Virus record (IMG/VR): IMGVR_UViG_3300008108_000016
Location: 62,001 to 126,000 of that record
Direction: 5' to 3' (one strand)
DNA: 64,000 nucleotides
From: a virus
This document shows, one piece after another, positions 4,922 through 56,237 of this stretch; position 1 is the first letter of the stretch, and each line of letters begins with the position of its first letter. A program made the translations under genes and the position numbers. The notes below the pieces were generated by a model that was not told where the DNA came from, made no database searches, and saw only the letters and a list, made by a program, of their open reading frames with translations.

Positions 4922-4944
4922 TATCGTTATTAAAATTTTTCTAT

Positions 4945-5844: not shown

Positions 5845-5859
5845 AATAATAAATATCAT

Positions 5860-5866: not shown

Positions 5867-5890
5867 AAAAAAGGGAGAATTAATCTCCCT
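5866..5890 (-). terminator. Rho-independent terminator after the tail sheath gene
   Basis: On the minus strand AGGGAGA (5884-5890) pairs with TCTCCCT (5872-5878) around a 5-base loop and is followed by a T-rich run. It begins 20 bases past the sheath stop codon. On the plus strand the same stem is followed by TTCCTTTTT, so it could work both ways. Confidence 0.75.
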
Positions 5891-5909
5891 TTCCTTTTTC
5901 ATTTTATCA

Positions 5910-16424: not shown

Positions 16425-16435
16425 CCCATCTTTTT
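16404..16435 (+). terminator. Rho-independent terminator at convergent gene ends
   Basis: GATGGGTTAA (16404-16413) pairs perfectly with TTAACCCATC (16421-16430) around a 7-base loop, followed by TTTTT. The stem contains the end of the plus-strand gene, and its T run overlaps the polymerase stop on the other strand. Confidence 0.85.
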
Positions 16436-25603: not shown

Positions 25604-28600
25604 TTAAGATTCTCCCGTTGCAATTGTTTGCCAATCAACATTTCCTGTCAATGCGGCATTAGCATTAGTGTTTATTATAAAACCTGTAGTTGTTTTTGAT
25701 TCATAAGTAAATACTCTATTGTCCGAACCCGTAATCCCAATAGTGTAATTTGTGGTCGGGTAAGTATTTGTAAAGGTTACTGTATATTTTCTTGGTGTTC
25801 CTATAAAACTTGCGGCAGTAACAGTTCCTGATTTTATATTTAATCCTATGGTTGCCGTTAAATTTGATTGACCTTGATTTCTACTAATTGTTAATGTGTT
25901 GGCGGAATATGTTACTCCGGTAACAAAGGTATCCGCCGAAACAAATCCTGTTACATTAAACGTTCCTCCCGTATTATTTGTAAATGTTGCGGTTCCGTTT
26001 GAATATGTTCCACCTGTAACTCTTATATCAGTTGGTAAATTTTGGTAAGTTGTTGCCGATAATACAGACGAGCTTATCGTACCTGTTGATGTTAGTCCTG
26101 TCACAGTATTAAATAAAACATTGAAAGTCCCACCTGTGTTATTTGTAAATGTAAATGTATTATTAGAATAAGTGGATCCTGTTACAAATACATCAGTTCC
26201 TGATGTTCCTCCTGTTGTGAAACCTGTAACAGTAAATGTACCTCCAGTGTTGTTTGTAAAAGTTGCGATTCCACTTGAATATGTTCCTCCTGTTACAAAA
26301 ACATCAATTGGTAAATTCTGATATGTGGTTGCTGATACTGTGTTTGCAGTTAATCCATTTGTAAACACTGTTGGCCCTGTAACCGTACCTCCCGTAAATG
26401 TTGATCCTCCTGACGATGGTTGCCATGAAGCATTGCCATTAGCATCTGATGTTAAAACATAACCATTAGTTCCTCCTGATGTCATTTGGAAGTTTGTTGT
26501 TATCGTTTTACCTGAAATGTTTACTTGATTTCCTGCCGCAAATATTAAATTACTTCTGTTTGAGTTATTTGTGCCATTACCAACAATGAACGCACCTTGA
26601 GTGGTATCTCCTGTTGTATTCCACAAACCTTGAGCGTGTTGATAATCACCTGATGTAACAGTTCCAATCCCCTCAGAATGTGAATAATCACCAAAAGCAT
26701 TTGTGGATATACCTTCAGAATGAGAACCATTACCCCAAGAAATAGTTTCCTTACCTTCAGCATGTGACCATAAACCAATTGATCTTGTATCATTTCCTTC
26801 GGAGTGAGACCACAAACCATGTGTAATACCGCTTAATCCTTCTGAATGAGAAAAATGCCCTGTATTTATATCAGATTTAAAAGGTGTTCTTACATTTGGA
26901 AATGATAAAATAACAGTACTATTAAAACTAGTATCCATTAATTGTAAATCAGTCTCAGAACCATTAAATGTAACACCACTTACTTCATAATACCCATATA
27001 TACTATTGCTAATATAGTCATCTAATACAACATAGTTACCAAAATAACTTGTAATATCACCAATGGACGGATCAAACTGAGTGAATCCAGATAAAAATTT
27101 AACTAAGTACCCAAAAGCTCCTGATATCGTTGAGTCACCTTCCGAATGTGAATTTTTACCCGCGGAAATAGTTTCTGATCCCTCTGAATGAGACCAATTA
27201 CCTCTTGAAATTGTTTCTGATCCCTCTGAATGAGACCAATCACCAATTGAAATTGTTTGCTGACCTTCAGAGTGAGAATAAATACCACTTGAAATTGTTT
27301 GATTTCCTTCTGAATGAGACCAACCACCACTTGAATTTGTTTGTTTCCCTTCAGAGTGAGAATAAATACCACTTGAAGTTGTTTGCTGACCTTCAGAGTG
27401 AGAATAATTACCTGTTGAGGTTGTTTGGTAACCTTCAGAATGGGAGGATCTTCCAGATGATATCGTTGATTCACCCTCAGCATGAGAATAGTTACCTGAT
27501 GATAATGTTGCAATACCTTCAGAGTGTGACCCATATCCTGATGATGTTGTACCGTTACCTTCAGCGTGAGAATAGTTACCTGATGATGTGGTAGCCCCTC
27601 CTTCGGCATGAGAATAGCTACCTGACGAAGTAGTATAGTCCCCTTGCGCAAAACTATAATTTGTTGTTGCCGAAACGGCATTACCAAAAGCAAAAGATGT
27701 TATTCCTGACACGTAAGATGTTGGAGATTGTATTGAATCGTGAATTGTTATTGGTGAACAACCATATACGTTTGTAACATATAAATCTGTGATGCAATTA
27801 CCCGAACCCCCACTAAATGGTTCTGTTAGTCCTGTAACACTAAATGTTCCACCAGTATTATTGGTAAATGTTGCTGATCCTGACGAATATGTTCCTCCCG
27901 TTACAAAAACATCAACAGGTAGGTTTTGATAGGTTGTTGCTGAAATTGTTGTTGCGGATAACCCATTTGTAAATATTGTTGACCCTGTAACAGTACCTCC
28001 CGTAAACGAAGATTGTAACCCCCAATAAGAGTTTCCTAATGAATCTGAAGTTAAAACATAACCATTTGTTGCTCCAGATGTCATTTGGAAATTGGTTGTT
28101 TTTGTTTTTCCGTTAACCTCTAATCTTACTGAAGGTGTTGATGTGTTTATACCCACGTTACCCACGGCAGTAATTATCATCTTTTCACTAAATGATGATC
28201 CTGTTAATGTAAAAAATTGTAAATCTCCCGACTCTTGGGAAATAGTGTTGTTCGTATTACCAACTTTAATTGCAGCCCTTGCAATATATGTGGATCCATT
28301 ATTTGCAACAGCAAAAACTAAACCGTTTTGATTTACAGGGTCAAAAATGTATCTTTGATTAGTTGCTCCGACTGATTCCACCCCAAATGTTGCTCTTGGA
28401 GATATATTTGATCCCCCGAGAGAAGTTCTATATTGAGGATCCGTTACAGTTGTACCCCCAAGATTCACTAAACGACCACCTAAAACAGTATTACCCGTTA
28501 CGGTTAAATCACCATTATCTGTAAGACCTGTCACAGTATTAAATAATACATTGAAAGTCCCACCTGTGTTATTTGTAAATGTAAATGTATTATTAGAATA

Positions 28601-31600
28601 AGTGGATCCTGTTACAAATACATCTGTGTTGCCTGCAGAAAAACCTGTGATATTATATGATCCACCAGAAACGGTACTCAAAGATAATGTCCCACCTGAA
28701 TATGTTCCACCTGTAAATGAATTCAAAAATCTATTATCATTATCACTTACAACTGTTGTACTTGAACTTGATGTTTTTACTTTACCAAACGTGGTTGTTG
28801 ATGCGGTTGAAATCCAATCGTTTAATGTACCACTTACATCCGCATAAGGTATTGCATTTGCGGATGGTGTTGTAGAACCAACAGGATCTAAACCACCAAA
28901 TTGATGTCTTGTTGCGTGAGATTGTATTGTTACACCATTTATCGTTCCAGCACTTACAATATTATTAGTACCCATATCAAGGTTTCCGCTCATCGCACGA
29001 GCACCACTAACCAAAAGATATTGTGTATGATCGTCAGCCGTTAAACCAAGCAAGTTTCCATGAACCGAAGATGCGTTCACCCCACCCGCTCTAAATGCGA
29101 TTGTGGGTCTTATATCCTCAATTTGAGTAATACCACTTGTACCTTCTTGAACATATATGTTTGCAATTTGAACAACACCATCTGTAAAATATGTTGGTGG
29201 TGTTGGTAAAAGAGCGTTCTCCGTTTGTACTAATGTTGAGTATTCATTTTGACCTAACACCAAAAAGTAATTCTCGTAGGATCCTTCACCTACAGTGTAT
29301 AATGTGTGTTTTGTAAAATAACCTGTAGTTAACCCTGTTAAAGTACCATTAAAATCATATTGGGTATTGTTAACTAATGTTGTTGCGGTGGTAACCCAAG
29401 TTGATCCTGTTCCATTTCTATAATATTGTGTAAATGTTAATCCAGTACCACCTGTCGGTAAAAATTCATTTGACGAAAAATGATAATCACCTTGAGTTAC
29501 ATCTAATGTAAATGGTGTTGTTCCTTCTGTTACTATTGATCCATTTGCAAAAATTGGCCCTAACGCTTCTGTGAATAATGAATCAAAACGATTTGATGTG
29601 TGTTCCGCATTTAAAGGGGACAAATCAATGAACTCAACCCCTGTTGAATTTGTTACAACTCTACCCAATAATATATTATAAGACGTAATTGGTTTTGTTC
29701 CTGAACTTACAAGATTAGTATTTTCGTTAATATAAATGTAATTATCGGTATTTGCCGATAATGTGATTAAATTATTTACCCAATCTATTCTTCTAACGAT
29801 TCCACTATTATCGGATTTTTCTAAATAACCAAACCCACTATCAGCTTGAACTGTAAAACCACTTATAACACTTATGGAACCACCACTTAACAACCCCATA
29901 GTTGATCCTTCAAATATAAGAGTGGTAAAATCGGTATGTGAACCATCGGTAAATGTAACAGATGCTTTTCTTGTTATACCAAATTCACCATCCTCAATAT
30001 CCAAAAATGCCCAATATACATCATCAGAAACTGTAAATACTTTTTCGTGGTTTGAACTACCACCAAATGTACCAAACGTACCAATTCTTTCAACATATAA
30101 ATCCCATTCACCACTAACAAAACTTGCATTATCAACATCAAATCTAATAGGAAGACCAACATTTGGATTTCTAATCCCATAGGTAAATCCATCAACTGTA
30201 ATTGTACTACAATACAATCCAGCCCCATCTTGAACGTAATATGCGGTACTGCCTGATACTCCATTACTTTGATTATCACCAACAAAGATACTTAATGTTG
30301 CCCCACTACCTGTGGCATAATTACAATATGTGATATTACCACCAGTTGGGAAGTTAAAGTAGTTTTCCATATTTGCCAACGCCAAGTACCCATTGTTACC
30401 AATTACTTTGGTTCCATATGTGTATTCTCCGTTGTAATCTATATATTCACCATAAAATTTAGTATCCTGAGTATCAGACTCTATCCAAATATTAGTATCA
30501 CAATCATACATTGATATTTTATGTGCTTGGGCAAAATCACCAACATCGTAACAATAAATTCCAGCATAACCTGATGGTGCTCCACTTAAACTTAAAAATG
30601 ATATTTCATTATTAATACCAATTTTTATAATGTGCTGAGTGTTTGTATTCGGTAAAATTTGAGTTGTTTGAATGTTACTACCAACAATACTTACATATGG
30701 TGTTTGTGTTAAATCAATTTCATTTTCATAAAATTCTCCGGGATCAACTGAAATTACATATCTATTATTAATAGAAGTATTACCTGAACTAATTAAATAG
30801 TCAACCGCAGATTTAATTGACGAAAAGTCCCCACCTTTTTTTGCTACGGTTATTTCTTTCGGGTCTTGGTTTACCTCATAAAGTGGCGCATTTTGATTTA
30901 TAATTGTTTTTAAAAAGTTGTCAGTTCCTTGAACTTTTCCCGTTGCTCCTGAATGTGCAATATTTACATCTATTGTGTTGTTCTCAAAATTAAGAGCAAT
31001 CGCATCAATACTAGGAGCGGATCCAATTTGGGGTGCGTCAATACCTATTGCCCATCTTTGGAAGTTGACTGCGGTTAATCTTAAAAATCCTCCGTTTTCT
31101 ACGTAGAATCCTGTTCCCGCAGCAGCACCTGCCGCCTTTGTTAAAAGACATCCATTAACAATGAAACCACAACTTGGTGCGTCGGCTTTAGCAAAAACCA
31201 ATCCAGATGTTGTAACAATACCACCATTTGTGGATGTTACGTTTCTTAATTGCATTCTACCAATACCACTTCCACTATTTGTTGAGTAAAAACCTATTGT
31301 GAACGGATACCCACCATACTTAACATTTGAACATTGCATAATGATGTTAGCACCACCATAAGCAACTACTTTAGCGTGTGTGTAATTCGCACCAAACCTT
31401 ACGTTTTCTACGTAAGAAATTGCCGCAGATTGTGGTGTTGTTGAAGATGAATAAACAATTGCAGATACACCCGTTCCCGTACATCCTTGAATTTGAAAGT
31501 CAAATATACCTGATTGATCACTTAAATGTATTAATGTTTGTGATGGATCATTTGCTTGAATTACGGTTGATATTGATGTATCACCTTTAATTGCAGCATA

Positions 31601-33115
31601 AGATGGTATAGTAAAGGGGTCTTCATTATAAACACCACCTGCAACTCTTACGGTATATGTATTTGCCGATGTCGCTCCTGTAATACTATTTATCGCATCT
31701 TTTATTGAATTAAAATCAACTCCAGTACTCCCTGTTAACGCAACGGTAATCGTGTTATTAGTTATCAACAAAGAATTAATACTACTCAATTCAACATCAC
31801 CTGTTGTTGAATTTCTAACTAAAACAGATGTTTCATTATTATTTGTTGTCGGTGTTGTTGATATATTTAGAGTATTTGCGGTCAAGACATTTGTTAATGT
31901 TTGACCTGTAACACTAAAATCACCATTAACCGTAAGTCCTGTCACATCATTAATAGTTGCGGTTAAAGTATTCCCTGAATTATCAGTTAATGTAAAAGTA
32001 TTATCATTGTAGGTAAAACCAGTTGTGAATTTATCGTTATCTGTAATACCCGTTGTTGATATTGTGAAATTAGGATATGTTCCTGTAACTGAAATGTATT
32101 GTCCGTCATTTAATGTAACAATTTGATCTGGATCAGTATTTGTTATTGTAAAATTAGGATATGTCCCACCCGTTAATATTCCTGTTCCTCCTGATATTGT
32201 AACAACTTGATCAGGGTCAGTATTTATGATATTTATGTTTCCTGTGGTTGTGTTTGCTGATAATCCTGTTCCTGTTGTTAATGAATTAACATAACTTGTT
32301 TCACCTGTATAAAATCCTGTTACATTAAATGTTCCTCCTGTATTATTTGTAAACGTTGCAGATCCATTTGAATACGTACCTCCTGTAACAAAAACATCAA
32401 TCGGTAAATTTAAATAAGTTGATGCGGAAATTGTATTTGCGGTTAAATTATTAGTGGTTGTATTTCCGGTCACATTTAAATTACCATTAATTGTTAAACC
32501 ACTAAAATCATTAATTGTTACCGAAAAATTAGTATTATTATTATTATTAGATATTGTTAATACGTTATTTGAATATGTGTATGCGGTTATAAAGGTGTTT
32601 GCATCTCCGGTTAAAGACGTTAAGTCTAAAGTGTACGCCGATAAAATATCATTTCTATCAAAATATGCAAATCCATTTGAATACGTTGCTCCCGTTGTAA
32701 ATGTATTTGGTATCCCCGTTAAATTTGATCCATCACCATATAATGTTCCTCCACTAATTATTGGTGAATATATTGTATTTGCGGTAAGACCATTTAGAAA
32801 AATTGTTGATCCCGATACTGTTCCACCAGTAAAAGTTCCTCCACCACCTCCTGTATTGAAAATAGACCAATCGGATAATGTTCCGTTCCATGGAGAAGGG
32901 TTCAGTTTATAATAATCTGTTCCACCTGAAACACCAACAACCATTCCCGCTCTTCTACGAAGATCTGGTATGTTATTTAAATCGGAAAGTAAATCAACAT
33001 TTCGGAATCCATCAATACCATATAATGGATCAATAACGGGATACTGATCCGTAGGTTCTGATGGTGAAATAAAACCAAAAACCTCAACACCTCCTGATAA
33101 ACTAAAACTCATCAT
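25604..33115 (-). CDS. Giant tail fibre with beta-helix and YadA-head-like repeats
   Basis: The 2503-aa product starts at tandem ATGs (33115/33112). Residues 1-130 are a likely attachment region. Two pectin-lyase-like beta-helix segments begin near 468 (FNSIKDAINSI, VRVAGGVYNEDPF) and 762 (FSSIKSAVDYL, ISVDPGEFYENE). A fibre hinge GLTADDHTQYLL lies near 1358, and NVGINTSTPSVRLEVNG near 1655. About 17 SH(S/A)EG repeats of 14 residues, like YadA head coils, fill 1820-2160 with one insertion. The C-terminus is a small beta domain. Many copies of a TFTNNTGGTFNVTGF module separate the parts. It is a trimeric receptor-binding fibre by inference. No S74 chaperone domain was seen. Confidence 0.85.
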   Translation of the reverse strand: MMSFSLSGGVEVFGFISPSEPTDQYPVIDPLYGIDGFRNVDLLSDLNNIPDLRRRAGMVVGVSGGTDYYKLNPSPWNGTLSDWSIFNTGGGGGTFTGGTVSGSTIFLNGLTANTIYSPIISGGTLYGDGSNLTGIPNTFTTGATYSNGFAYFDRNDILSAYTLDLTSLTGDANTFITAYTYSNNVLTISNNNNNTNFSVTINDFSGLTINGNLNVTGNTTTNNLTANTISASTYLNLPIDVFVTGGTYSNGSATFTNNTGGTFNVTGFYTGETSYVNSLTTGTGLSANTTTGNINIINTDPDQVVTISGGTGILTGGTYPNFTITNTDPDQIVTLNDGQYISVTGTYPNFTISTTGITDNDKFTTGFTYNDNTFTLTDNSGNTLTATINDVTGLTVNGDFSVTGQTLTNVLTANTLNISTTPTTNNNETSVLVRNSTTGDVELSSINSLLITNNTITVALTGSTGVDFNSIKDAINSITGATSANTYTVRVAGGVYNEDPFTIPSYAAIKGDTSISTVIQANDPSQTLIHLSDQSGIFDFQIQGCTGTGVSAIVYSSSTTPQSAAISYVENVRFGANYTHAKVVAYGGANIIMQCSNVKYGGYPFTIGFYSTNSGSGIGRMQLRNVTSTNGGIVTTSGLVFAKADAPSCGFIVNGCLLTKAAGAAAGTGFYVENGGFLRLTAVNFQRWAIGIDAPQIGSAPSIDAIALNFENNTIDVNIAHSGATGKVQGTDNFLKTIINQNAPLYEVNQDPKEITVAKKGGDFSSIKSAVDYLISSGNTSINNRYVISVDPGEFYENEIDLTQTPYVSIVGSNIQTTQILPNTNTQHIIKIGINNEISFLSLSGAPSGYAGIYCYDVGDFAQAHKISMYDCDTNIWIESDTQDTKFYGEYIDYNGEYTYGTKVIGNNGYLALANMENYFNFPTGGNITYCNYATGSGATLSIFVGDNQSNGVSGSTAYYVQDGAGLYCSTITVDGFTYGIRNPNVGLPIRFDVDNASFVSGEWDLYVERIGTFGTFGGSSNHEKVFTVSDDVYWAFLDIEDGEFGITRKASVTFTDGSHTDFTTLIFEGSTMGLLSGGSISVISGFTVQADSGFGYLEKSDNSGIVRRIDWVNNLITLSANTDNYIYINENTNLVSSGTKPITSYNILLGRVVTNSTGVEFIDLSPLNAEHTSNRFDSLFTEALGPIFANGSIVTEGTTPFTLDVTQGDYHFSSNEFLPTGGTGLTFTQYYRNGTGSTWVTTATTLVNNTQYDFNGTLTGLTTGYFTKHTLYTVGEGSYENYFLVLGQNEYSTLVQTENALLPTPPTYFTDGVVQIANIYVQEGTSGITQIEDIRPTIAFRAGGVNASSVHGNLLGLTADDHTQYLLVSGARAMSGNLDMGTNNIVSAGTINGVTIQSHATRHQFGGLDPVGSTTPSANAIPYADVSGTLNDWISTASTTTFGKVKTSSSSTTVVSDNDNRFLNSFTGGTYSGGTLSLSTVSGGSYNITGFSAGNTDVFVTGSTYSNNTFTFTNNTGGTFNVLFNTVTGLTDNGDLTVTGNTVLGGRLVNLGGTTVTDPQYRTSLGGSNISPRATFGVESVGATNQRYIFDPVNQNGLVFAVANNGSTYIARAAIKVGNTNNTISQESGDLQFFTLTGSSFSEKMIITAVGNVGINTSTPSVRLEVNGKTKTTNFQMTSGATNGYVLTSDSLGNSYWGLQSSFTGGTVTGSTIFTNGLSATTISATTYQNLPVDVFVTGGTYSSGSATFTNNTGGTFSVTGLTEPFSGGSGNCITDLYVTNVYGCSPITIHDSIQSPTSYVSGITSFAFGNAVSATTNYSFAQGDYTTSSGSYSHAEGGATTSSGNYSHAEGNGTTSSGYGSHSEGIATLSSGNYSHAEGESTISSGRSSHSEGYQTTSTGNYSHSEGQQTTSSGIYSHSEGKQTNSSGGWSHSEGNQTISSGIYSHSEGQQTISIGDWSHSEGSETISRGNWSHSEGSETISAGKNSHSEGDSTISGAFGYLVKFLSGFTQFDPSIGDITSYFGNYVVLDDYISNSIYGYYEVSGVTFNGSETDLQLMDTSFNSTVILSFPNVRTPFKSDINTGHFSHSEGLSGITHGLWSHSEGNDTRSIGLWSHAEGKETISWGNGSHSEGISTNAFGDYSHSEGIGTVTSGDYQHAQGLWNTTGDTTQGAFIVGNGTNNSNRSNLIFAAGNQVNISGKTITTNFQMTSGGTNGYVLTSDANGNASWQPSSGGSTFTGGTVTGPTVFTNGLTANTVSATTYQNLPIDVFVTGGTYSSGIATFTNNTGGTFTVTGFTTGGTSGTDVFVTGSTYSNNTFTFTNNTGGTFNVLFNTVTGLTSTGTISSSVLSATTYQNLPTDIRVTGGTYSNGTATFTNNTGGTFNVTGFVSADTFVTGVTYSANTLTISRNQGQSNLTATIGLNIKSGTVTAASFIGTPRKYTVTFTNTYPTTNYTIGITGSDNRVFTYESKTTTGFIINTNANAALTGNVDWQTIATGES
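26097..26194. repeat. 98-base near-identical repeat, copy A
   Basis: Matches 28527-28624 with one visible mismatch. Both copies encode the same module of the giant fibre (NTVTGL/LFN and FTNNTGG on the minus strand), so they reflect recent duplication or gene conversion within the gene. Confidence 0.8.
26630..27650 (-). repeat. 42-base coding repeats (SHSEG, YadA-head type)
   Basis: Twelve consecutive 14-residue units with SHSEG or SHAEG cores lie at about 27110-27650. Five more lie at about 26640-26850, after an 85-residue insertion. Bases vary between units while the key His-Glu-Gly pattern stays, indicating selection on the protein fold. Confidence 0.85.
28527..28624. repeat. 98-base near-identical repeat, copy B
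   Basis: Partner of the copy at 26097-26194 in the same fibre gene, about 2.4 kb away and in the same orientation, so recombination between them would delete the YadA-like region. Confidence 0.8.
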
Positions 33116-33128
33116 AATTTATTAATAT

Positions 33129-33914
33129 TTATCCACACATCCAACAATATACTTGACCACTAAACGAGAAGAATGTTCTATATATATTGTATGTTATTGG
33201 GAATCCGTTTATATCTATAACTATCACAGTTCCGATTAAATTAATCGGAATATAATTACCTGAACAACCTGTTTCACTATCCCTAAATTCATTTGGTTGA
33301 GGAATTGTTTGAGGTATTAATATGTAACCATACCCACTTCCAAATTGGAAATCTACATAAGATTCTCTAGGGTCATTTGTGTTTACAAATGTTAATAATG
33401 ACACATCACCTGATGTTATTGTAGTACCACTAAACTTACCAAAATAAATTCCTGGCGGAGCCGGTAATGGAGTTTTTGTCGGTGTCGGAGTTGCGGTAAC
33501 AGTACATATGAACGTTGATGTTGGTGTAGGTGTCTGTGTTTTTGTTGGTGTAGGTGTTGCCGGAAGAGATTTTGTTGGTGTAGGTGTCGGCGTTAACTTA
33601 CAAGGATCAAAAGTTGGTGTAGGTGTTACAGTCGTTGTTGGCGTAGGTGTTTGAGTCCTTGTAGGAGTAACAGTCGGTGTTGGTGTGGGTGTCGGTCTTG
33701 GTACATTTAAAAAGTACGAACATTTTTGTGAAATAACATAAATTGTGTATGTACCAAAAATTTCAGTTGTTGGTGAAATTGATGAAGAATCAAACGTATA
33801 TGGCAATAGATGATCACCCAAATTATATACATTTTCTTCATTATCGGGCTTAAATATTATGTTGGCAATATTACCATCATAACTAGGGCTACTTATAGTT
33901 ATAAATTGTTCCAT
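33129..33914 (-). CDS. Virion-type protein with long Pro/Thr linker
   Basis: The 261-aa protein has an N-terminal beta domain (1-75, with a Tyr/Cys patch [11 protein letters not shown]). A Pro-Thr repeat linker of about 85 residues follows ([10 protein letters not shown]-like), with two Cys-containing breaks. A C-terminal beta domain has [19 protein letters not shown] and ends YCWMCG. PT linkers keep domains apart and are typical O-glycosylation targets. It lies between the giant fibre and a sugar-modifying block, so it is probably fibre- or baseplate-associated. I recognise no specific family. Confidence 0.6.
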
Positions 33915-33939
33915 TGTGTCATTTATAAATACAATGGAA
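33909..33939. promoter_or_regulatory. Inverted repeat over the start codon of the PT-rich gene
   Basis: TTCCATTGT (33909-33917) and ACAATGGAA (33931-33939) are perfect 9-base inverted repeats. The minus-strand ATG (33912-33914) lies in one arm, and a TATTTAT motif (33925-33931) in the spacer reaches the first base of the other arm. It could be an operator or an RNA hairpin hiding the start codon. Confidence 0.5.
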
Positions 33940-34008
33940 TATCTATTTTTTTAATCTAATGTGTTTATACCAAACTCTTTCGTCTATAAATTAAAAAAAT
34001 AAATTTTA

Positions 34009-34815
34009 TCAAAAATAACCAAATTGATCAAACATCCATTTATATCTATTTTTTACCCAGTTGGATGCCTCAATACCTAATACTTCATTGTAATCTTTTT
34101 TAATTGGTTCAATCTTTTGTTTTATTGTATGATCACCATATATACCATATACACTATCATCTTCTGTTGTTATTTGTTCAACATGATCAAAATCGTGACC
34201 GTCATAATAAGGTAAACCCAAATAATTATATATTCTATCCATTTCAGTTTTTGGACTTGAGGTAAAGTCCTCAAATCTAACAAACAACATTTTATTGTTT
34301 AAACCTTCTTTAAAAATTTGATATAACCTTTCTAAAGCTAACCCAACAGGTTGACCTTGAGACCAAATATCAATTCTTTTTTCCGTTGTTGTGCCAGCCA
34401 TTTGAGAATGGTTTACAATTCCGGCATCCAAATGTTGATTTTTTCTGAAGTTTTTTTCCATTGATGCAAAAATTGCTCTTGGATCTCTAACCATACAAAT
34501 TATTTTTGGATTAGGATAAAATGAATTTAAGAAACCGTAATGAACTCCCCATCCTCTACTCTTATCTAAAACATATGGTTTGTCTGTAATCCCGTTATAA
34601 AAACCCTCAAGACCGTTACGACAAAAAGATAAAAAACCATCTTTCATTAAGTTTTGATCTTGGGCTTTAAATTCGGGTGAGTTAGAATAATTTGCTCTTG
34701 CGGCATAAACTAACTCTAATACACCTGAAGTTGGTGTAACATAAAAATCAGGATTTTGTCCCATTACATTTTGTAGTAATGTTGACCCTGCTCTTGGTAA
34801 AGAATGGACACTCAT
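34009..34815 (-). CDS. Sulfotransferase (copy 1)
   Basis: The 268-aa protein has the PAPS-binding 5'-phosphosulfate loop SLPRAGSTLLQNVM at residues 5-18 and the 3'-phosphate motif IICMVRDPRAIFASM near 105-118. This defines a PAPS-dependent sulfotransferase. Acceptors in the family are carbohydrates or tyrosines. It is paralogous to the gene at 37309: both have TPTSGV, KAQD, LDKSR and the same C-terminal GDH-IK-I pattern. Its start at 34815 lies 68 bases inside the upstream GT9-like gene, an unusually long overlap. Confidence 0.82.
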   Translation of the reverse strand: MSVHSLPRAGSTLLQNVMGQNPDFYVTPTSGVLELVYAARANYSNSPEFKAQDQNLMKDGFLSFCRNGLEGFYNGITDKPYVLDKSRGWGVHYGFLNSFYPNPKIICMVRDPRAIFASMEKNFRKNQHLDAGIVNHSQMAGTTTEKRIDIWSQGQPVGLALERLYQIFKEGLNNKMLFVRFEDFTSSPKTEMDRIYNYLGLPYYDGHDFDHVEQITTEDDSVYGIYGDHTIKQKIEPIKKDYNEVLGIEASNWVKNRYKWMFDQFGYF

Positions 34816-35632
34816 GTGTCATTCCGTTGAAATTATAATCAAACAGATAACTGTCAGGTAATTTAACATCTGTAGGTAAATCGGCAATAATATTTTTATG
34901 AATATCATAACCAAATAACTTTGGTGATGTTCCCACCCATAAAACGACCGATGGGAGATTTAATGCTGCCGATGCGTGTTGTAAAGAAGAATCAATTAAA
35001 ATTCTTTTTTCTGACATCAACAATAAAGAAAACAATTCCATGTTTGACATTGGGTCTTTAATTACCTCTACATTTTCTAAAGCATTAAATTCATGTCTAC
35101 AAATTTGTATTATGTGATAATATTTTGAATAGTGATTAACCAAATGTTGTGATACAGAAATTGGCATATCTCTTGTCCATGAATAAGGATAAGGTTGGTC
35201 GTTTAAAGGTCCTCCGTTTGTTTGAATAACCATAATTGGTTTTTCTCTTTTCCATCTGTTAAACCCAACTTGTTTTTGCCTTAAATTGAATTTTAATTCA
35301 GGTTGTTCCCCGTTGTACTCCAATCCAAATAATTTACACCAATTTAAAATCAATGGTAATTTTTTATGAATGTGGTCATCCGTAAAATATGGTTCGTGTT
35401 TAAAAATCTTAATATCCTTATCTTTAATAAAATCATCATAAAAATATGGAGTATTACCGATTCTATAAACTCTATCCACAAAATCCAAATTCAAGAATAT
35501 TTCTGGATACGCACAAACAACAATAAGATCCCTATCGGGAAAATTGTTTTTAATACATTTAGCAACTGCGGTTGATGATACGTGTTTTCCTAATCCACCC
35601 TCAAGGTGAAATAATGAATATTTTTTTTCCAT
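34748..35632 (-). CDS. GT9-like (heptosyltransferase-type) glycosyltransferase
   Basis: The 294-aa protein has a GT-B layout: N-terminal FHLEGGLGKHVSSTAVAKCI (glycine loop). A C-terminal nucleotide-sugar half has MVIQTNGG, MSEKRILIDSSLQHASAALNLPSVVLWVG and a late HECPF. This is the pattern of ADP-heptose:LPS heptosyltransferase relatives. It lies between a sulfotransferase and the BAHT-like gene, all minus strand. The last 22 codons overlap the sulfotransferase start, so its original C-terminus may have been replaced when the genes were joined. Confidence 0.7.
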   Translation of the reverse strand: MEKKYSLFHLEGGLGKHVSSTAVAKCIKNNFPDRDLIVVCAYPEIFLNLDFVDRVYRIGNTPYFYDDFIKDKDIKIFKHEPYFTDDHIHKKLPLILNWCKLFGLEYNGEQPELKFNLRQKQVGFNRWKREKPIMVIQTNGGPLNDQPYPYSWTRDMPISVSQHLVNHYSKYYHIIQICRHEFNALENVEVIKDPMSNMELFSLLLMSEKRILIDSSLQHASAALNLPSVVLWVGTSPKLFGYDIHKNIIADLPTDVKLPDSYLFDYNFNGMTHECPFFTKSRVNITTKCNGTKS

Positions 35633-35652
35633 GATTAAATTATAATTTGATT

Positions 35653-36558
35653 TTAACTATTAGTAAATGAGAGAGCTTTGTTAATTTGATCAATAACCAT
35701 TTGTGGTGTTATTGTCGTATGACATTCATTTTCTCTATTCGTATTTAAAAAAATTGGGCACTTTGATGATATATTTGGGATTATATTAAAACATCCATTA
35801 CAAACATTTTTATTTATAACTCTAAAACAATCAAACTCATTATGTTCTTTTGTAAATCCCGATATCATCACAACAGGAACATCGTACGCCCAAGCAAGCC
35901 AAGAAAGACCTGACGACAATCCAATAAATAATCTTGACTCCAATATATGATTTAATGAAACATTAATATCATCAAATCCGTGGTATCCTTTAACATTCTT
36001 AAGATTTAATGTATTTTCATACGAAACATTATATACCTCAAATCCTGATCTAATAAGTTCATCAACAATAATTTGCCATTTATCTTTATCCCAAGTAGCA
36101 ATTGATTTTAATGATTCCGGAGCAATTGTTATTTTATTATTAATAATTTTTCTTTCTTTTTTAATAAGAGAAGGTTTGATAGGTTTTGTTGATTGTGGGA
36201 TCATCATTGTATCTTTTGTTGCATACATCATGCCACCCAACGTATGAGAAACATCTTCCTTATCATATCCAACAGAAATATGTTTATCAACAATGATTCG
36301 TTTTTTTTGATTTGCATTTATAAATTCATACTTATCATTATTTGATTTTAATAAATGAGGAAAAAATGTTGAAACCAAAACTTTTTTTGGTTTATGATAA
36401 TCAACAAATTGATCCATAAATGATGCAAAACAAATTGTATCACCCAAACAAAAGGAATTGAAATGTAATAGAATTTCTTTATTTTCTAATGTTTTGGTAT
36501 TCTTATCATTTTCAACATAGTCTAACAATTCCGTATTGTCGTAATGTCTTTTAATCAT
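35653..36558 (-). CDS. Autotransporter-heptosyltransferase-like protein (BAHT/TibC type)
   Basis: The 301-aa protein contains LHFNSFCLGDTICFASFMDQF and KITIAPESLKSIATWDKDKW. It then has RLFIGLSSGLSWLAWAYDVPVVMISGF, followed by a four-cysteine cluster with spacing C-x2-C-x10-C-x11-C (C253-C279). The family's iron-finger cysteines lie in the same region. BAHT enzymes O-heptosylate beta-helical autotransporter passengers in the cytoplasm. It shares an ATGA overlap with the GT8 gene. Because the neighbouring fibres have autotransporter-like beta-helix and YadA-type repeats, they are candidate acceptors. Donor sugar is unknown. Confidence 0.72.
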   Translation of the reverse strand: MIKRHYDNTELLDYVENDKNTKTLENKEILLHFNSFCLGDTICFASFMDQFVDYHKPKKVLVSTFFPHLLKSNNDKYEFINANQKKRIIVDKHISVGYDKEDVSHTLGGMMYATKDTMMIPQSTKPIKPSLIKKERKIINNKITIAPESLKSIATWDKDKWQIIVDELIRSGFEVYNVSYENTLNLKNVKGYHGFDDINVSLNHILESRLFIGLSSGLSWLAWAYDVPVVMISGFTKEHNEFDCFRVINKNVCNGCFNIIPNISSKCPIFLNTNRENECHTTITPQMVIDQINKALSFTNS

Positions 36559-37295
36559 ACTTTTAATTTTAATATTTTTGAGTAATACTCAAACCAATAT
36601 CTTTCAGTCCATATGGTTCCTTCTTCCAAAGAAACTAATGGTTTTTGTTGCCAAGGCTTTTTAACAATATAATGAAATATTTTAATATACTTTGGAAGTC
36701 CTGTATTATGAAAAACTTGTTTGTTATAAGTTTTTAGGAAATTATATTCTATTGGGAATGATGTTATAATATCTTGAAAATAGTAATTTATGATATCCTG
36801 ATCTAAATGTTCCGTGATACCATAAAGTTTTGTTAAATTGATTAGATCGTTTGTTATTTTTTGATTAAGGTATTTTTTACTTATTACCATAACTCCGGTA
36901 TTATATTGATCAATATATAATTCTCTAATGGCACCGAAAGAACATTGTGAATCAATTAATTTGTCAATATTACCCAATATTAAAGTATCACAATCTAAAA
37001 AAATTATTTTGTCCACATCCTCCATTGAAAAAATCTCATATTTGGTATAATCACCAAATGACATTTGTTTCTTTTTTAATTCCTCAATTTCATAATATTT
37101 TGACAAATCGTAAGTTTTTAACAAAACATTATTGTGTATTTTTCTTGAAGTAATCAAATCATCATGAGTCAAATCGTTACTAATTACAGTGAATGGAATA
37201 TCTTCTTTAATTATTCTTGGGTTATTCTCAATTAGAGATTTTAACATAACCTCAAACCCAATTAGATATTCTTTATTACATACGGTTACAAACAT
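36555..37295 (-). CDS. GT8-family glycosyltransferase
   Basis: The 246-aa GT-A enzyme has DKIIFLDCDTLILGN (DxD near residue 100), YNTGVMVISKKYL, TEHLDQDIINYYF and IKIFHYIVKKPWQ, the usual order in GT8 (glycogenin/LgtC-type retaining galactosyl- or glucosyltransferases). It starts at 37295 after a sulfotransferase and overlaps the BAHT-like gene by four bases. It may extend the first sugar placed by that enzyme, as GT8 partners do in some protein glycosylation systems; this is inference. Confidence 0.8.
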   Translation of the reverse strand: MFVTVCNKEYLIGFEVMLKSLIENNPRIIKEDIPFTVISNDLTHDDLITSRKIHNNVLLKTYDLSKYYEIEELKKKQMSFGDYTKYEIFSMEDVDKIIFLDCDTLILGNIDKLIDSQCSFGAIRELYIDQYNTGVMVISKKYLNQKITNDLINLTKLYGITEHLDQDIINYYFQDIITSFPIEYNFLKTYNKQVFHNTGLPKYIKIFHYIVKKPWQQKPLVSLEEGTIWTERYWFEYYSKILKLKV

Positions 37296-37308
37296 AGATT
37301 AAAGTTTT

Positions 37309-38127
37309 TTACAGGTAATTAAATTTTTCAAAAAACCACAAATAGTTTTGAATAATAATATTACAATTTTTTGAACCTAAAATATTCAAATAATCATCCT
37401 TTAATGGTTTTATTTCTCGTTGTATTTTATGATCACCAAATATTCCATGTATTATATCATTTTCGTGTGTTAGTTGATCAACATTTTTAAAATCATGTTT
37501 ATAGTAAGGGATTTCCAAATACTTGTAGATTTTTTGAATTTCTATTTCTGGGGTTTTACAAAAATCTTCATATCTTATAAATAAAACATTTGAATCTAAT
37601 CTTTGTTGTGTAATATCATACAACCACTCAAGAGCTGGCCCAACGGGAGGTGAAACAGAAAAATGAACCATTCTTGAATCTGTTGTCATGTTTTTTAATT
37701 CCGCACCATTAACAATTAATGGGTCTTTATGTGGATTTTTTCTGTAATTTTTTTCCATTGACGAAAAAATTGATCTTAAATCTCTAACCATAATTATTAC
37801 TTTTGGGTTGGACTCAAAAAAATCTAAAAAACTATAATGTCCTGACCACGCTCTACTTTTATCTAAAACATATGGTCTATCTGTTATTTCATTAAAGAAT
37901 CCCCATAAACCACCTTTACAAAATCCTCTAAAACCTTTTTTCATTGTTTCAGCATCTTGAGCCTTAAACGCATCTCCTGTTGAATATATTGTTCTTGCTT
38001 GTAATAGAAACTCAACCACTCCTGATGTTGGTGTTGAGTAAATGTCCGGATTTTGCATCATAACATTTTGTAATAATGTTGATCCTGCTCTTGGTAATGA
38101 TGCATTAAAGAATATATTTTTAACCAT
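37309..38127 (-). CDS. Sulfotransferase (copy 2)
   Basis: The 272-aa protein has a 5'-phosphosulfate loop NASLPRAGSTLLQNVM at residues 8-23 and a 3'-phosphate motif VIIMVRDLRSIFSSM near 110-124. It matches the copy at 34009 across its length and has a longer, more typical N-terminus (MVKNIFFNAS). The two copies flank the GT9, BAHT and GT8 genes, which suggests duplication around the cassette. It begins the block after the repeat fibre gene. PAPS would have to come from the host. Confidence 0.82.
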   Translation of the reverse strand: MVKNIFFNASLPRAGSTLLQNVMMQNPDIYSTPTSGVVEFLLQARTIYSTGDAFKAQDAETMKKGFRGFCKGGLWGFFNEITDRPYVLDKSRAWSGHYSFLDFFESNPKVIIMVRDLRSIFSSMEKNYRKNPHKDPLIVNGAELKNMTTDSRMVHFSVSPPVGPALEWLYDITQQRLDSNVLFIRYEDFCKTPEIEIQKIYKYLEIPYYKHDFKNVDQLTHENDIIHGIFGDHKIQREIKPLKDDYLNILGSKNCNIIIQNYLWFFEKFNYL

Positions 38128-38163
38128 AATGATATCTTTATATCAAAATACTAAAAAAATATT

Positions 38164-38170
38164 ATAAATA
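38164..38170 (-). promoter_or_regulatory. Candidate promoter motif TATTTAT before the sugar block
   Basis: Thirty-six bases upstream of ATG 38127, in the gap after the repeat fibre gene; it would head the sulfotransferase-GT8-BAHT-GT9-sulfotransferase unit. Confidence 0.35.
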
Positions 38171-38183
38171 AATTGTGTTTTTA

Positions 38184-39791
38184 TTAAACCAACAATATTT
38201 TATAATCAGCACCATTCAATCGGATTGTTAATGTTTTTGTTGACGTACAAGATTCTGTAGTCACCGGCCCAATAGGAGTTCCCGCAGACCCTAAAACAAA
38301 CTGAGAATTTGCCGTTGCTGTCGCTCCATTACCCAATATAACTGAATTTGAGAAATCCCCTGATTGTACATTGTACCCTAATGCCACGTTAGTGTTTCCT
38401 GTTGTATTATATCGTAAAGCGTTTGACCCTAAAGCAACGTTATTGTTTCCTTCTGTGTTTGAATATAATGAGTTTTGTCCTGCCGAAATATTATAATTCC
38501 CTATTGTGTTGTTATATAGAGAGCTATTACCTAATGAAATATTGTTTACACCTATAGTGTTTTGTACCATAACACTTTTACCTATTGCAACATTGTATTG
38601 TCCTGTTGTGTTAGAATATAAAACATCAAAACCTAAACCAATATTGAAAAATCCTGTTTGATTATTTTTTAAAGATCTATATCCTAAACCAATATTATTT
38701 TCACCTGTTGTGTTAGTTCCTAAAGAACACCTACCTAATGAAATGTTATTACATCCTTCTGTGTTTTTTTCTAAAGCACTGAGGCCTAAAGCAATGTTAT
38801 TTGAACCGGAGGTGTTATATATTAAAGCACTTTGACCTAAAGCAACATTATTGTTTCCTATTGTATTGTTAAGTAAAGCACTGTTACCTAAAGCAACATT
38901 ATTTGAACCGGAGGTATTATATTCTAAAGAGGATTCACCTAAAGCAATATTATTATCTCCTATTGAATTAGCTCGTAAAGCGTTTGGACCTAAAGCAATA
39001 TTGCGAAAACCTTCTGTATTATTTTGTAAAGCGTTTGGACCTAAAGCAATATTATAGGTTCCTGTTGTGTTATAAAATAATGATTTGTAACCTTGTGCAA
39101 TATTATTTGATCCTGTTGTATTTTGTTGTAAAGATCCATTACCTAAAGCAATGTTATGATTTCCATAACTATTAAGTGAAAGAGAACCGTCTCCCATACC
39201 TATATTATGAGACCCTGATATATTTGAACTAAGAGAGCTATTACCTAAGGCTATATTTGAATATCCTATGGTATTTAAAAGAAGAGACGATTGACCTATT
39301 GATATGTTATCTACTCCTGATATGTTACTTTGTAAAGCACTTATTCCTATGGCAACGTTACTGGATCCTGAGATATTTGAATATAAAGCAGCGTTACCTA
39401 TTGCAATGTTTTGATATCCTGTTGTATTTGAAAATAATGATTTGTAACCTTGTGCAATATTGTTTGATCCTGTTGTGTTGTTAGATAATGTATTATATCC
39501 AATACCAATATTTGTATTGATATTACCGGCACCAATACCCAACATTAAACTATTAACAGTATTTGCGGTTAATCCTTGCGTAAAAATAGTATCACCAGTA
39601 ACAGTACCACCACTTAATGGTAAAAAGTTATTATCCGATCCTGTAAAACCACTAAGAATATAACTTTGTAATTGGTTTATTTCTATTTTTTTAGTTTCAT
39701 CGGTCGCAATATCAACTATTGGTAATACATCGTTTGATGATACCTCGCCAGATAAAATTTGATTTAATTCGGTTATTTTTGTGATTCCCAT
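38184..39791 (-). CDS. Repeat fibre protein with about 22 YadA-like 17-residue repeats
   Basis: The 535-aa protein begins with a baseplate-fibre N-terminus (MGITKITELNQIL, DVLPIVDIATDETKKI). It passes through FLPLSGGTVTGDTIFTQGLTANTV, a linker also found in the giant fibre. About 22 units with the pattern T-x-G-x-x-N-(I/V)-A-(L)-G-x-x-(A/S)-L-x-x-N follow, like trimeric adhesin head coils. The short C-terminus (TIRLNGADYKILLV) is a plausible trimer cap. It should form a rigid trimeric shaft for host recognition. Confidence 0.8.
   Translation of the reverse strand: MGITKITELNQILSGEVSSNDVLPIVDIATDETKKIEINQLQSYILSGFTGSDNNFLPLSGGTVTGDTIFTQGLTANTVNSLMLGIGAGNINTNIGIGYNTLSNNTTGSNNIAQGYKSLFSNTTGYQNIAIGNAALYSNISGSSNVAIGISALQSNISGVDNISIGQSSLLLNTIGYSNIALGNSSLSSNISGSHNIGMGDGSLSLNSYGNHNIALGNGSLQQNTTGSNNIAQGYKSLFYNTTGTYNIALGPNALQNNTEGFRNIALGPNALRANSIGDNNIALGESSLEYNTSGSNNVALGNSALLNNTIGNNNVALGQSALIYNTSGSNNIALGLSALEKNTEGCNNISLGRCSLGTNTTGENNIGLGYRSLKNNQTGFFNIGLGFDVLYSNTTGQYNVAIGKSVMVQNTIGVNNISLGNSSLYNNTIGNYNISAGQNSLYSNTEGNNNVALGSNALRYNTTGNTNVALGYNVQSGDFSNSVILGNGATATANSQFVLGSAGTPIGPVTTESCTSTKTLTIRLNGADYKILLV
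38385..39540 (-). repeat. Array of 51-base coding repeats
   Basis: Consecutive 17-codon units with conserved NNIALG cores. Some neighbours are nearly identical in DNA (for example GAACCGGAGGT at 38805 and 38910), which suggests unequal exchange; others are diverged. Confidence 0.85.
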
Positions 39792-39811: not shown

Positions 39812-42025
39812 TTATAAAATAATATAATTATTATTTTGTGTTGTAATATAAAATAAATTTTGTGTTACCAAATAATCAACATCAATCAAGACATATACGA
39901 AGTCATTAGGTTCACACACTATTGTATTGCAATTAGGGCAATCAGGATTTAACATATCAAATGTAGACTGAAGTAATAAAAAATTATGTTTTATTTCAGG
40001 GGCAGACAATGGAGTAACGTACATTCTAAATTGTGATACCCCACCCTCAAATGTTCCTGCAAAATTTTCTTCAAGTAAAATATTTGTTTGTAAACCTGAT
40101 AATGACGTTGTGTTTAATAAATCTGTTGAGAATGATTCAGGATCCTGAATATATTTTCCATCTAACGCAGTACATGCCGAGAACGTCAAGTTCTCTCTTA
40201 AACCTTGCGTACCTCCACCCCAAGATATGTTAAAAGGAACACCAAGTTGTTTTTCTTTGTCGGTATTTAACGCTCTTGGAATTATCTCTTCAAAATTTTC
40301 AATGGTGTAGAAGATTTTACCATTAACATAGATTTTTAATCTACCCATTCTAAAGTCGGTTTCATCAAGCCAAGTTTGTTCCAAATTAACAAGTTCAATT
40401 TGTTCGGCAACTTGTTGACCATTCGTATATGGTGGAGCGATTAATTTTGCGGTATCATTTGCCAAAGAATTTAAATACTCAAACTTTGTTATGTCTCCTA
40501 ATCCACCTCTCCATTTTAAATCACAAGTGTCCAACCAAGTATACCTTTCCCATACGATATCAACTTGGAACCAATGTTCTTGATCCAAATAATCAGGATT
40601 TTCATTTTCACAATAATCATATATCCCGTTTGGAGAACAATATTCATCAATCGTATATCCTGTAACATATGTTTGACCTGTAGTACAAGTCCCCGTTGTT
40701 TCACAATTACCCGTCCATCTTAAAACTTTAACACCAATTTTTGGATTTTCTTTTGACCCACATAACTTAACGGCTAAGGCGTTTGACATTGAATCAAATA
40801 ACGGATCCGTTTCACAAGTACTTTGAATTGAAGTGAATCCAGTTGGGGTACAATCAACACAATCTTTACATTCCTCACATTTTGTACAAGACGGAGTACA
40901 TACAGGAGTTGGAACATCACACGTTGGAGTTGGAGAAGGTGTTGGTGTTGGTGTGGGTTCAATAATAGTTGAGCAAGAATGTTCAAAACATTCCCAACCA
41001 CAAGTTTCACAAGGAGTATCATAACATCCGCACCCACAAGTTAATTTTTTATCTTTTATTCCATTACATAAATCACAACCATAATTTAGATGAGGATCAT
41101 GTTGATTGTTTTTTGATCGTGGAGGATAAACATAAACACATCTACTATTCGTTACCGTTCTATTACAACACGCACAAGTTTCAACACATTCTTCTAACCC
41201 ATTTGTAACTCTTGTATAACCTGTAAAACAATTTGGTGTCCCATCGGCGTGATGATAAAATTTATTTTCGGCTCTTGTACCAAAATAAAAGAAAATACCC
41301 GCATTGTCAGGATAAACCTCGTTTAATGTTGTTTCACCTGATGATGGAAAAAATTCATTTATTAATCTTGGTTTTAATAACATTTCTACCGCCCATCCTT
41401 TATTCATTCTTTCAGGTAGGATGTCGTAATCATAACCAAATAATTTATAAAATCCTTGATAAAACCCACCATATAATTCATGATATTTACCAACAGATCC
41501 TGTTTTACTTACAACCTCATATAATGTTGTTTTTGGTATACCGGAAAATCTTTCATTTTGTGATGTATACCCGGTAACTTGAAACATTTTAAATCTTCTA
41601 TCATAATATTCTCTATCAAATTTAAATGAATCAGAATATAAACCATTTGTGAAATTTATTGATTCTCCTGTCATTGATGTTACTAGACCATTATCAATTC
41701 CTGTTAGTCCAATATCACAAGCAGTTGATGATGAAAAACAAGAAAGATCTAATTCATCTGGATTATAATAATTTTGAGAAACAAAAACGTTGTTATAATT
41801 ATATTGTTTATATAATAAAGTTAAATTTTGAACACTTATTGGGTTATTTATGTCAATATTTATTGGTAATCTATTACCATATGTTTGAGCAATTAAATAT
41901 GGTGAGAATACAACCTCTTGATTAAAGTCAACCTCATCGGACGCCAAAGACATATCTTGACAATCATTTACGATGTTTAACTTTAGTTTTTGGTAAACAT
42001 ATTGATTAATATTCTGTTGAGCCAT
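39812..42025 (-). CDS. Large Cys-rich virion structural protein
   Basis: The preferred start is ATG 42025 (MAQQNINQYVYQ, 737 aa); the TATTTAT motif ends just upstream. The N- and C-terminal thirds look like a beta-rich baseplate/fibre protein, with a lectin-like segment (RMGRLKIYVNGKIFYTIENF) near 570. Between about residues 275 and 400 lies a Cys-dense insert: CVETCACCNR, CDLCNG, CGCGCYDTPC, CETCGWEC, a PT linker, then CTKCEECKDCVDC. The paired CxxC spacing suits metal binding or disulfides. The function is probably structural; the insert is the odd part. Confidence 0.65.
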   Translation of the reverse strand: MAQQNINQYVYQKLKLNIVNDCQDMSLASDEVDFNQEVVFSPYLIAQTYGNRLPINIDINNPISVQNLTLLYKQYNYNNVFVSQNYYNPDELDLSCFSSSTACDIGLTGIDNGLVTSMTGESINFTNGLYSDSFKFDREYYDRRFKMFQVTGYTSQNERFSGIPKTTLYEVVSKTGSVGKYHELYGGFYQGFYKLFGYDYDILPERMNKGWAVEMLLKPRLINEFFPSSGETTLNEVYPDNAGIFFYFGTRAENKFYHHADGTPNCFTGYTRVTNGLEECVETCACCNRTVTNSRCVYVYPPRSKNNQHDPHLNYGCDLCNGIKDKKLTCGCGCYDTPCETCGWECFEHSCSTIIEPTPTPTPSPTPTCDVPTPVCTPSCTKCEECKDCVDCTPTGFTSIQSTCETDPLFDSMSNALAVKLCGSKENPKIGVKVLRWTGNCETTGTCTTGQTYVTGYTIDEYCSPNGIYDYCENENPDYLDQEHWFQVDIVWERYTWLDTCDLKWRGGLGDITKFEYLNSLANDTAKLIAPPYTNGQQVAEQIELVNLEQTWLDETDFRMGRLKIYVNGKIFYTIENFEEIIPRALNTDKEKQLGVPFNISWGGGTQGLRENLTFSACTALDGKYIQDPESFSTDLLNTTSLSGLQTNILLEENFAGTFEGGVSQFRMYVTPLSAPEIKHNFLLLQSTFDMLNPDCPNCNTIVCEPNDFVYVLIDVDYLVTQNLFYITTQNNNYIIL

Positions 42026-42036
42026 CTTTTTTTTAG

Positions 42037-42043
42037 ATAAATA
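42037..42043 (-). promoter_or_regulatory. Candidate promoter motif TATTTAT before the Cys-rich gene
   Basis: Within GTGGTATTTATC, 11 bases from ATG 42025. A plus-strand copy 14 bases away (42057) faces the other direction, so this is a candidate divergent promoter region. Confidence 0.35.
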
Positions 42044-42056
42044 CCACAAAACAAAG

Positions 42057-47827: not shown

Positions 47828-48415
47828 ATGACTAAAGAAAATGATGATTTTTTTGAACAAATAAAAGATCTTGAAGAAACTTTTGATGGTGATGAACCTG
47901 ACTATAATGCTGTTATGGAACTATTTGGAATCGACATAAATGAAATTGATAGAGAAATGAAATCGTATAACACAAAAGTTGAGGTTAATTATACCACAAA
48001 ACATGAAAATTCTGTAGACCCTGTATACGCTTACCCAACAGATTCAGGATTTGACTTGCATTCAACAGAGGAAATAGATATTGATCCATTTGGTAGAACC
48101 TTGGTTCCAACAGGATTGTTTATTGACATTCCCGAACATTATGAAATTCAAGTTAGATCAAAAAGCGGTTTAGCATTAAAACAAGGTTTGATGGTATTAA
48201 ATTCACCAGGTACGGTAGATCAAGGGTATACAGGTGAAATAAAAGTAATTATTTTTAATACGAATAATCACAAAGTTAAAATTGATAAAGGTCAAAAAAT
48301 TGCTCAGGCGGTTTTTTCTCCTGTTGTTTGTGGTAAGTGGATCAATTTTAATAAAGTAATTAACATTAACGATAAAGACAGATCTGATAAAGGATTTGGT
48401 AGTACAGGGATATGA
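47828..48415 (+). CDS. dut: dUTPase (dUTP diphosphatase)
   Basis: The 195-aa protein contains all five trimeric dUTPase motifs: AYPTDSGFDLHS (1), VRSKSGLALKQG (2), NSPGTVDQGYTGEI with the catalytic Asp (3), KGQKIAQAVF (4) and DRSDKGFGSTG (5, P-loop-like tail). It converts dUTP to dUMP and keeps uracil out of phage DNA. The first 55 residues are an extra acidic helical extension not in the basic family. It ends with an ATGA overlap into a glycosyltransferase. Confidence 0.93.
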   Translation: MTKENDDFFEQIKDLEETFDGDEPDYNAVMELFGIDINEIDREMKSYNTKVEVNYTTKHENSVDPVYAYPTDSGFDLHSTEEIDIDPFGRTLVPTGLFIDIPEHYEIQVRSKSGLALKQGLMVLNSPGTVDQGYTGEIKVIIFNTNNHKVKIDKGQKIAQAVFSPVVCGKWINFNKVININDKDRSDKGFGSTGI

Positions 48416-56233: not shown

Positions 56234-56237
56234 TACT

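Follow-up and report, generated by a model that had tools for sequence, protein, structure and literature searches.

We analyzed a stretch of 64,000 nucleotides of viral DNA, hereafter the window (positions 62,001 to 126,000 of the virus record IMGVR_UViG_3300008108_000016), and consider it fairly probable that it holds a virion-glycosylation island with two enzyme-acceptor pairs, in which a distinct type of repetitive fibre protein accompanies each enzyme. One enzyme is related to the autotransporter heptosyltransferases (BAHT) TibC and AAH, and the other to the polypeptide glycosyltransferase family GT60. The phage is large, contractile-tailed and of freshwater; its record of 157,807 bases is probably a fragment, as are many of the comparison records, some of which are near-duplicates. 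Outside the window, the first 20 kb of the record (L372) were included. Two separate linkages were computed, one between the short TibC-like enzyme and periodic fibres with 14- or 17-residue repeats rich in Ser, Thr and Asn, and one between GT60/HtrL_YibB and proteins with alternating threonines. The genes concerned are the following:

35653-36558, minus strand: TibC/AAH (BAHT)-like glycosyltransferase of 301 aa, without the N-terminal beta-barrel and with the four-Cys finger kept (TIGR04414, TibC in PDB, AlphaFold/Foldseek, residue census)
38184-39791, minus strand: 535-aa fibre with 19 units of a 17-residue repeat, proposed acceptor of the TibC-like enzyme (PHROG virion structural/tail spike families)
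25604-33115, minus strand: 2503-aa fibre with 17 SH[SA]EG motifs, proposed acceptor of the TibC-like enzyme (repeat spacing)
23258-24505, minus strand: GT60 polypeptide alpha-GlcNAc-transferase homologue (PF11397, E=8.4e-72; 47% identity to ORF334 of phage XacN1)
21003-22664, minus strand: HtrL_YibB-domain protein (PF09612, E=6.6e-18)
33129-33914, minus strand: 261-aa protein with a conserved N-terminal domain followed by an alternating-threonine (T-X)n mucin-like stretch, proposed acceptor of GT60

The GT60 and alternating-threonine pair is supported at least as strongly as the TibC-like and periodic-fibre pair. The product of 23258-24505 scored 243 bits against PF11397, above the Pfam gathering cut-off of 21, and its DSH motif was invariant. 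The HtrL_YibB homologue accompanied phage GT60 in 80/80 loci, a T/P-rich open reading frame (ORF) was present in 72 of these 80, and 148 of 149 T/P-rich ORFs lay on the GT60 strand. The coding pattern PTPTPTP was found in 28/28 GT60-positive and 2/34 GT60-negative whole records, and the reversed pattern, included as a control, in 0/62. Of 50 records chosen solely because they carry PTPTPTPT, 11 had GT60. Within the subset of long-form BAHT phages, PTPTPTP was detected in 3/3 with GT60 and in 2/31 without it (p=0.0017). The scan of viral contigs confirmed 380 GT60-like stretches. In the annotated phage collection, the window GT60 was matched in only three records, XacN1, RAS14 and CM1, and in XacN1 and RAS14 it occurred together with the HtrL_YibB homologue and with T/P segments in a large protein of the structural region.

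Relatives of the 33129-33914 protein have the N-terminal domain in common, whereas their T/P stretches and C-termini vary. The fixed residue of the alternating proteins is threonine, not proline: there were 194 distinct runs of at least eight alternate Thr (the longest with 238) versus 4 runs of alternate Pro, and, over 499 separate windows of 24 aa, Thr made up 86% of the Thr register and Pro 53% of the other register. Since the Thr register is fixed and PF13640 (prolyl-hydroxylase-type) oxygenases are scarce (2/24 records), the acceptor residue points to Thr, and hydroxyproline is disfavoured. Elsewhere in the record, L372 contains two further proteins with several alternating-threonine segments each, in a separate gene cluster (4484-5593 and 5596-6804), and two more with shorter segments (15144-17579 and 17611-19173).

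Next, the TibC-like enzyme was characterized. The original prediction, made from the letters of this DNA, had named 35653-36558 as a BAHT-like gene containing GLSSGLSWLAWAYDVPVVMISGF and a four-Cys finger, and the ORF proved to be real, with both of these features (the cysteines are C253, C256, C267 and C279): the NCBIfam model TIGR04414 (hepto_Aah_TibC) matched its product with E=4.5e-37 and 128 bits over model positions 79-373 of 374. By sequence, the enzyme matched TibC in PDB at E=1.9e-16. Comparison of a predicted structure with TibC, which the prediction had put forward as a check, was in agreement: with an AlphaFold model built on a 43-sequence alignment (pLDDT 89, pTM 0.88), the first 21 Foldseek matches were all TibC, with E down to 1.8e-17 and TM of 0.77-0.81 by query length, ahead of WaaC/WaaF. 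The profile, the sequence and the predicted fold thus confirm that the enzyme is of TibC/BAHT type. A plain lipopolysaccharide (LPS) heptosyltransferase was also considered for 35653-36558 and rejected, as TibC models and structures clearly outscored WaaC/WaaF.

The 128 bits are, nevertheless, below the curated cut-off of 200 bits for the TIGR04414 equivalog, and the bacterial relatives L088-L090 score 298-352 bits. The N-terminal barrel is missing, as the alignment begins at model position 79 and PF21129 (TibC_1st) gave no match, and so is the beta-hairpin thumb, whose region is shortened or gapped relative to TibC and carries no hairpin in the AlphaFold model. A residue census was made over 46 aligned members, namely 19 representatives of the short clade to which the window enzyme belongs, 23 phage domains of the long form and 4 domains from bacteria. 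All 46 have the catalytic Asp D40 (TibC D110), W220 (TibC Trp305) and the four cysteines of the predicted metal finger. The position of TibC K230 was Ala or Ser in 19/19 short-clade members, with an invariant Lys three residues earlier instead (Lys at Ser+2; K151 in the window enzyme), while K230 was kept by all 23 long-form and the 4 bacterial domains. The T226 position was L/I in 18/19 short-clade members and the R286 position S/A/V in 19/19; R286 was also absent from most long-form phage domains and one bacterial member. The short clade was monophyletic (100/100 support), with a long stem and viral sequences only. In TibC, the residues that bind ADP-heptose are T226, K230, R286 and W305; changing D110, K230, R286 or W305 to Ala removes most or all of the activity, and the thumb and iron finger are required for dodecamer assembly (PMC4358343). 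Because the donor-phosphate site is rebuilt, with K230 replaced in all 19 members, ADP-heptose is probably not the donor of the window enzyme, unlike TibC, and the loss of barrel and thumb together with the changes at K230, T226 and R286 suggests that both donor and mode of action may differ. Given the sub-cut-off score, the lost barrel and thumb, the rebuilt donor site and the all-viral long-stem clade, the enzyme is best called a minimal, rebuilt TibC relative and not a BAHT in the strict sense; the proposal that the phage had taken over BAHT chemistry is not supported in that form.

The fibres beside this gene had been described as carrying beta-helix, SHSEG and 17-residue repeats. The 17 SH[SA]EG motifs of the 25604-33115 fibre, spaced 14 residues apart save for one larger gap, and the 19 copies of the 17-residue unit were found, but the beta-helix was not borne out, as the single-sequence model of the 535-aa fibre was all-beta with low confidence (pLDDT 55) and had no significant PDB match. 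A periodic fibre ORF (12-18-residue repeats) was located on the same strand, 87-2505 bp off, in 25/27 short-clade contigs, which form 16 clusters at 90% identity; it was upstream of the short-clade gene in 24 cases, and the two contigs without it are cut off just upstream. For a control among phages of the same kind, flanks of at most 20 kb on either side of GT60 were examined in 20 GT60-positive records that have no short BAHT. Periodic fibres were observed in 4/20, each of which also has a BAHT domain of the long form. Among GT60-positive records, periodic fibres were thus present in 16/18 with the short-clade enzyme, 4/7 with a long-form BAHT and 0/13 free of BAHT or, combined, in 20/25 with a TibC-like domain versus 0/13 without one (Fisher p=1.6e-6, only a guide because some records are near-duplicates and not fully independent). 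This genetic linkage lends support to the proposed self-glycosylation of the fibres, an account that was incomplete, having missed GT60, HtrL_YibB, the proteins with alternating threonines and additional genes for nucleotide sugars and glycosyltransferases.

The TibC-like enzyme might instead only elongate mucin-type glycans initiated by GT60, the fibre repeats not being its acceptor. We regard this as possible but doubtful. The gene is co-transcribed with the GT8 and GT9-like genes, its product is without barrel and thumb, and 24/27 short-clade contigs also carry GT60 and T/P-rich proteins, all of which would suit an elongating enzyme. However, in three divergent short-clade members (L031-L033), neither GT60 nor T/P proteins were found and the gene still adjoins periodic fibres; moreover, the short BAHT is missing from most phages with GT60 and T/P proteins. 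The linkage of the short clade to periodic fibres parallels the situation in bacteria, where BAHT genes are genetically linked to autotransporters (PMC4358343).

TibC-like domains are common in viruses, with at least 511 viral contig stretches versus 5 in 84,980 species genomes, in a scan whose patterns were derived from the same alignment and are phage-biased. A search for bacterial relatives in a sample of 274 genomes, from the class of a Methylomicrobium relative, returned the starting genome only. The long-form domains examined were mostly fusions with GT4, GT2 or methyltransferase domains. In the 735-kb phage LR756501 (L008 2954-5041, minus strand), the GT4-TibC fusion has in its vicinity a long (GTSGSSG)n protein that is collagen-like and rich in S, T and G, possibly a different type of acceptor.

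Around the two pairs, the window contains further sugar and sulfate genes. The GT8, GT9-like and two sulfotransferase neighbours that had been predicted were recovered (PF01501, a weak PF01075 match and PF13469 twice), and the order GT8-BAHT-GT9-sulfotransferase-T/P protein-fibre-GT60-HtrL_YibB is kept among related cassettes, with variants. These genes, together with a further virion protein, are:

36555-37295, minus strand: GT8 glycosyltransferase (PF01501, E=2.4e-20), whose stop overlaps the BAHT-like start; conserved beside the BAHT-like gene
34748-35632, minus strand: GT9-like glycosyltransferase (PF01075, E=0.014, and weak RfaC/heptosyltransferase I matches); conserved next to BAHT
34009-34815, minus strand: sulfotransferase 1 (Sulfotransfer_3, PF13469, E=2.7e-23); in most related cassettes
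37309-38127, minus strand: sulfotransferase 2 (Sulfotransfer_3, PF13469, E=8e-14)
22661-23254, minus strand: methyltransferase (RMNT_CmcI/Methyltransf_24-like), possibly a sugar O-methyltransferase (PF04989, E=1e-4, below cut-off)
39812-42049, minus strand: 745-aa probable virion protein with a PTPTPTPSPTPT segment (sequence)
48412-49836, plus strand: GT2-like glycosyltransferase (PF13712, E=4.5e-28)
62101: further GT2 glycosyltransferase
51205-51840, plus strand: Galactosyl_T (GT31-like) glycosyltransferase (PF01762, E=4.5e-8)
51831-52595, plus strand: RXYLT1/exostosin-like glycosyltransferase (PF24785, E=2.4e-7)
55196-56233, plus strand: nucleotide-sugar epimerase/dehydratase (PF01370, E=2.9e-37)
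57034-57684, plus strand: hexapeptide acyltransferase (PF00132, E=3.2e-14)
57681-58787, plus strand: DegT/DnrJ sugar aminotransferase (PF01041, E=8.2e-81)

The last three genes of the list suggest that the phage makes an amino sugar of its own. Within this sugar-nucleotide cluster, the gene between those for the epimerase and the acyltransferase (56211-57071, plus strand) encodes a beta-keto acid cleavage enzyme (BKACE, PF05853, E=1e-60), and the adjacent glycosyltransferases of 51205-52595 (plus strand) resemble families known best from eukaryotes. In sister cassettes (L006 10643-11562), the genes immediately after the sulfotransferase are those of an adenosine 5'-phosphosulfate (APS) kinase and a cytidylyltransferase-like protein, and the kinase points to a phage-made sulfate donor there; the L006 kinase had no match within the window, and a supply of 3'-phosphoadenosine 5'-phosphosulfate encoded in the window was rejected. 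As for the remaining structural genes, the tail sheath (5910-9479, minus strand) is very large, with 1189 aa, and standard sheaths matched its C-terminal third only; its nearest annotated relative by coverage is that of Microcystis phage Mel-JY01, itself with a TibC-like domain. An HNH/homing endonuclease gene (2736-4331, minus strand) lies near the sheath gene.

The gene content also brings up the host surface as a target. Glycosyltransferases of O-antigen converting phages often alter host surface polysaccharide, and GT9, GT8, GT25 and GT2 are, like the epimerase and aminotransferase families, typical of LPS/O-antigen loci, so the enzymes might modify this polysaccharide, for superinfection exclusion or receptor change, and not the virion. 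This is unlikely, since the enzyme genes lie inside the fibre cluster and are co-oriented with the fibres, the families scanned yielded no lipid-carrier transferase, flippase or polymerase, and host-surface modification gives no reason why GT60 should be associated so strictly with (T-X)n proteins and BAHT with periodic fibres. Moreover, family GT60 consists of polypeptide glycosyltransferases (PMC9472816, PMC8724618). Some large phages glycosylate their DNA, but attachment of the sugars to nucleobases is very improbable here, as DNA glycosyltransferases are absent from the matched families, the substrates of GT60 and TibC-type enzymes are polypeptides, and the genes belong to the fibre cluster.

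Several observations weigh against virion glycosylation by two enzyme-acceptor pairs. All the evidence is comparative, glycosylation of this phage is predicted from its genes, with no glycan seen, and linkage of an enzyme and a repeat protein does not prove that the latter is the acceptor. Of the 50 records drawn only for PTPTPTPT, GT60 was missing from 39 (e.g., G367, G335 and G359). The BAHT/periodic-fibre pairing is not universal, as only 7/54 long-form BAHT loci, in phages mostly without GT60, had such fibres nearby. The donor-site changes of the TibC-like enzyme could mean altered or lost activity, and yet no member has lost D40, W220 or any of the four cysteines. In the XacN1 description, the portions cited here (PMC5852040) name neither the enzyme family nor the acceptor. 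The records with PTPTPTPT that lack GT60 may use another initiating transferase, or the repeats may be ordinary linkers.

Under the two-pair reading, in the infected cell and before assembly, the GT60 enzyme would initiate O-glycosylation at the alternating threonines, with the TibC-like enzyme adding sugar to Ser/Thr of the fibre repeats. GT8, the GT9-like enzyme, HtrL_YibB and the other glycosyltransferases (GT31-like, RXYLT1-like and GT2) may then lengthen the chains, the two sulfotransferases would cap them with sulfate, and the phage epimerase, aminotransferase and acyltransferase would probably supply a modified sugar. The evidence for and against is evenly balanced on the wider proposal, that of a widespread lineage of large phages with a mucin-type pathway, in which GT60 acts on dedicated virion proteins with alternating threonines, and an independently linked TibC-like module for periodic autotransporter-like fibres, with phage enzymes extending and sulfating the glycans. 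GT60 was previously tied to eukaryotic mucins and Skp1, virion glycosylation has been documented for very few phages, and our literature search returned no earlier report of phages with GT60 or TibC-type enzymes, or of their pairing with repeat proteins. If true, hundreds of environmental phages would carry virion glycosylation, one could predict the acceptor protein once the enzyme is identified, and there would be bacterial viruses with a mucin-like coat. It would also provide a minimal TibC relative to study, and the function of the glycans could be directly tested in the cultured phages XacN1 and RAS14.

Compared with TibC/AAH (TIGR04414; PDB 4RAP/4RB4; PMC4358343), the window enzyme shares the GT-B fold, the catalytic Asp, Trp305 and the four-Cys finger, and its gene too is genetically linked to a repetitive beta-rich surface protein. 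It differs in being without the N-terminal barrel and thumb, in the replaced T226, K230 and R286 with a shifted Lys, and in belonging to a phage-only clade on a long branch with a score under the curated cut-off. The fibres resemble the head and stalk repeats of YadA-type trimeric autotransporters in their 14-17-residue periodic S/A/N/G-rich units; the resemblance is by periodicity only, as the window fibres matched no Pfam family and no known structure at a significant level. The window GT60 is related, through its PF11397 match at 8e-72, to TcOGNT1 of Trypanosoma cruzi and Gnt1 of Dictyostelium (PMC9472816, PMC8724618). The T. cruzi enzyme makes GlcNAc-alpha-Thr on mucin-like proteins (PMC9472816), and glycosylation of mucin acceptors on Thr is what we propose for the phage (T-X)n proteins; in contrast to the eukaryotic genes, the window gene is borne by a bacteriophage and has HtrL_YibB as a constant companion, and its catalysis is predicted from sequence. 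In the mycobacteriophages Che8, Corndog and Myrna, phage-encoded glycosyltransferases modify the phage's own virion proteins (Freeman 2023, as described in PMC12363180), as proposed here; in that description, the hosts are different, the acceptors are capsid and tail-tube proteins, and a pairing of TibC-like or GT60 enzymes with dedicated repeat proteins is not described. Finally, the Xanthomonas jumbo phage XacN1 (AP018399) shares GT60 (47% identity), HtrL_YibB (41%) and T/P segments with the window, and tblastn found no TibC-like enzyme in it. From proteomics, at least two glycoproteins are reported for XacN1, for which its authors suggest that the two glycosyltransferases of this phage, ORF328 and ORF334, may be responsible (PMC5852040). 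ORF334 is GT60, and these reported glycoproteins come nearest to experimental support.

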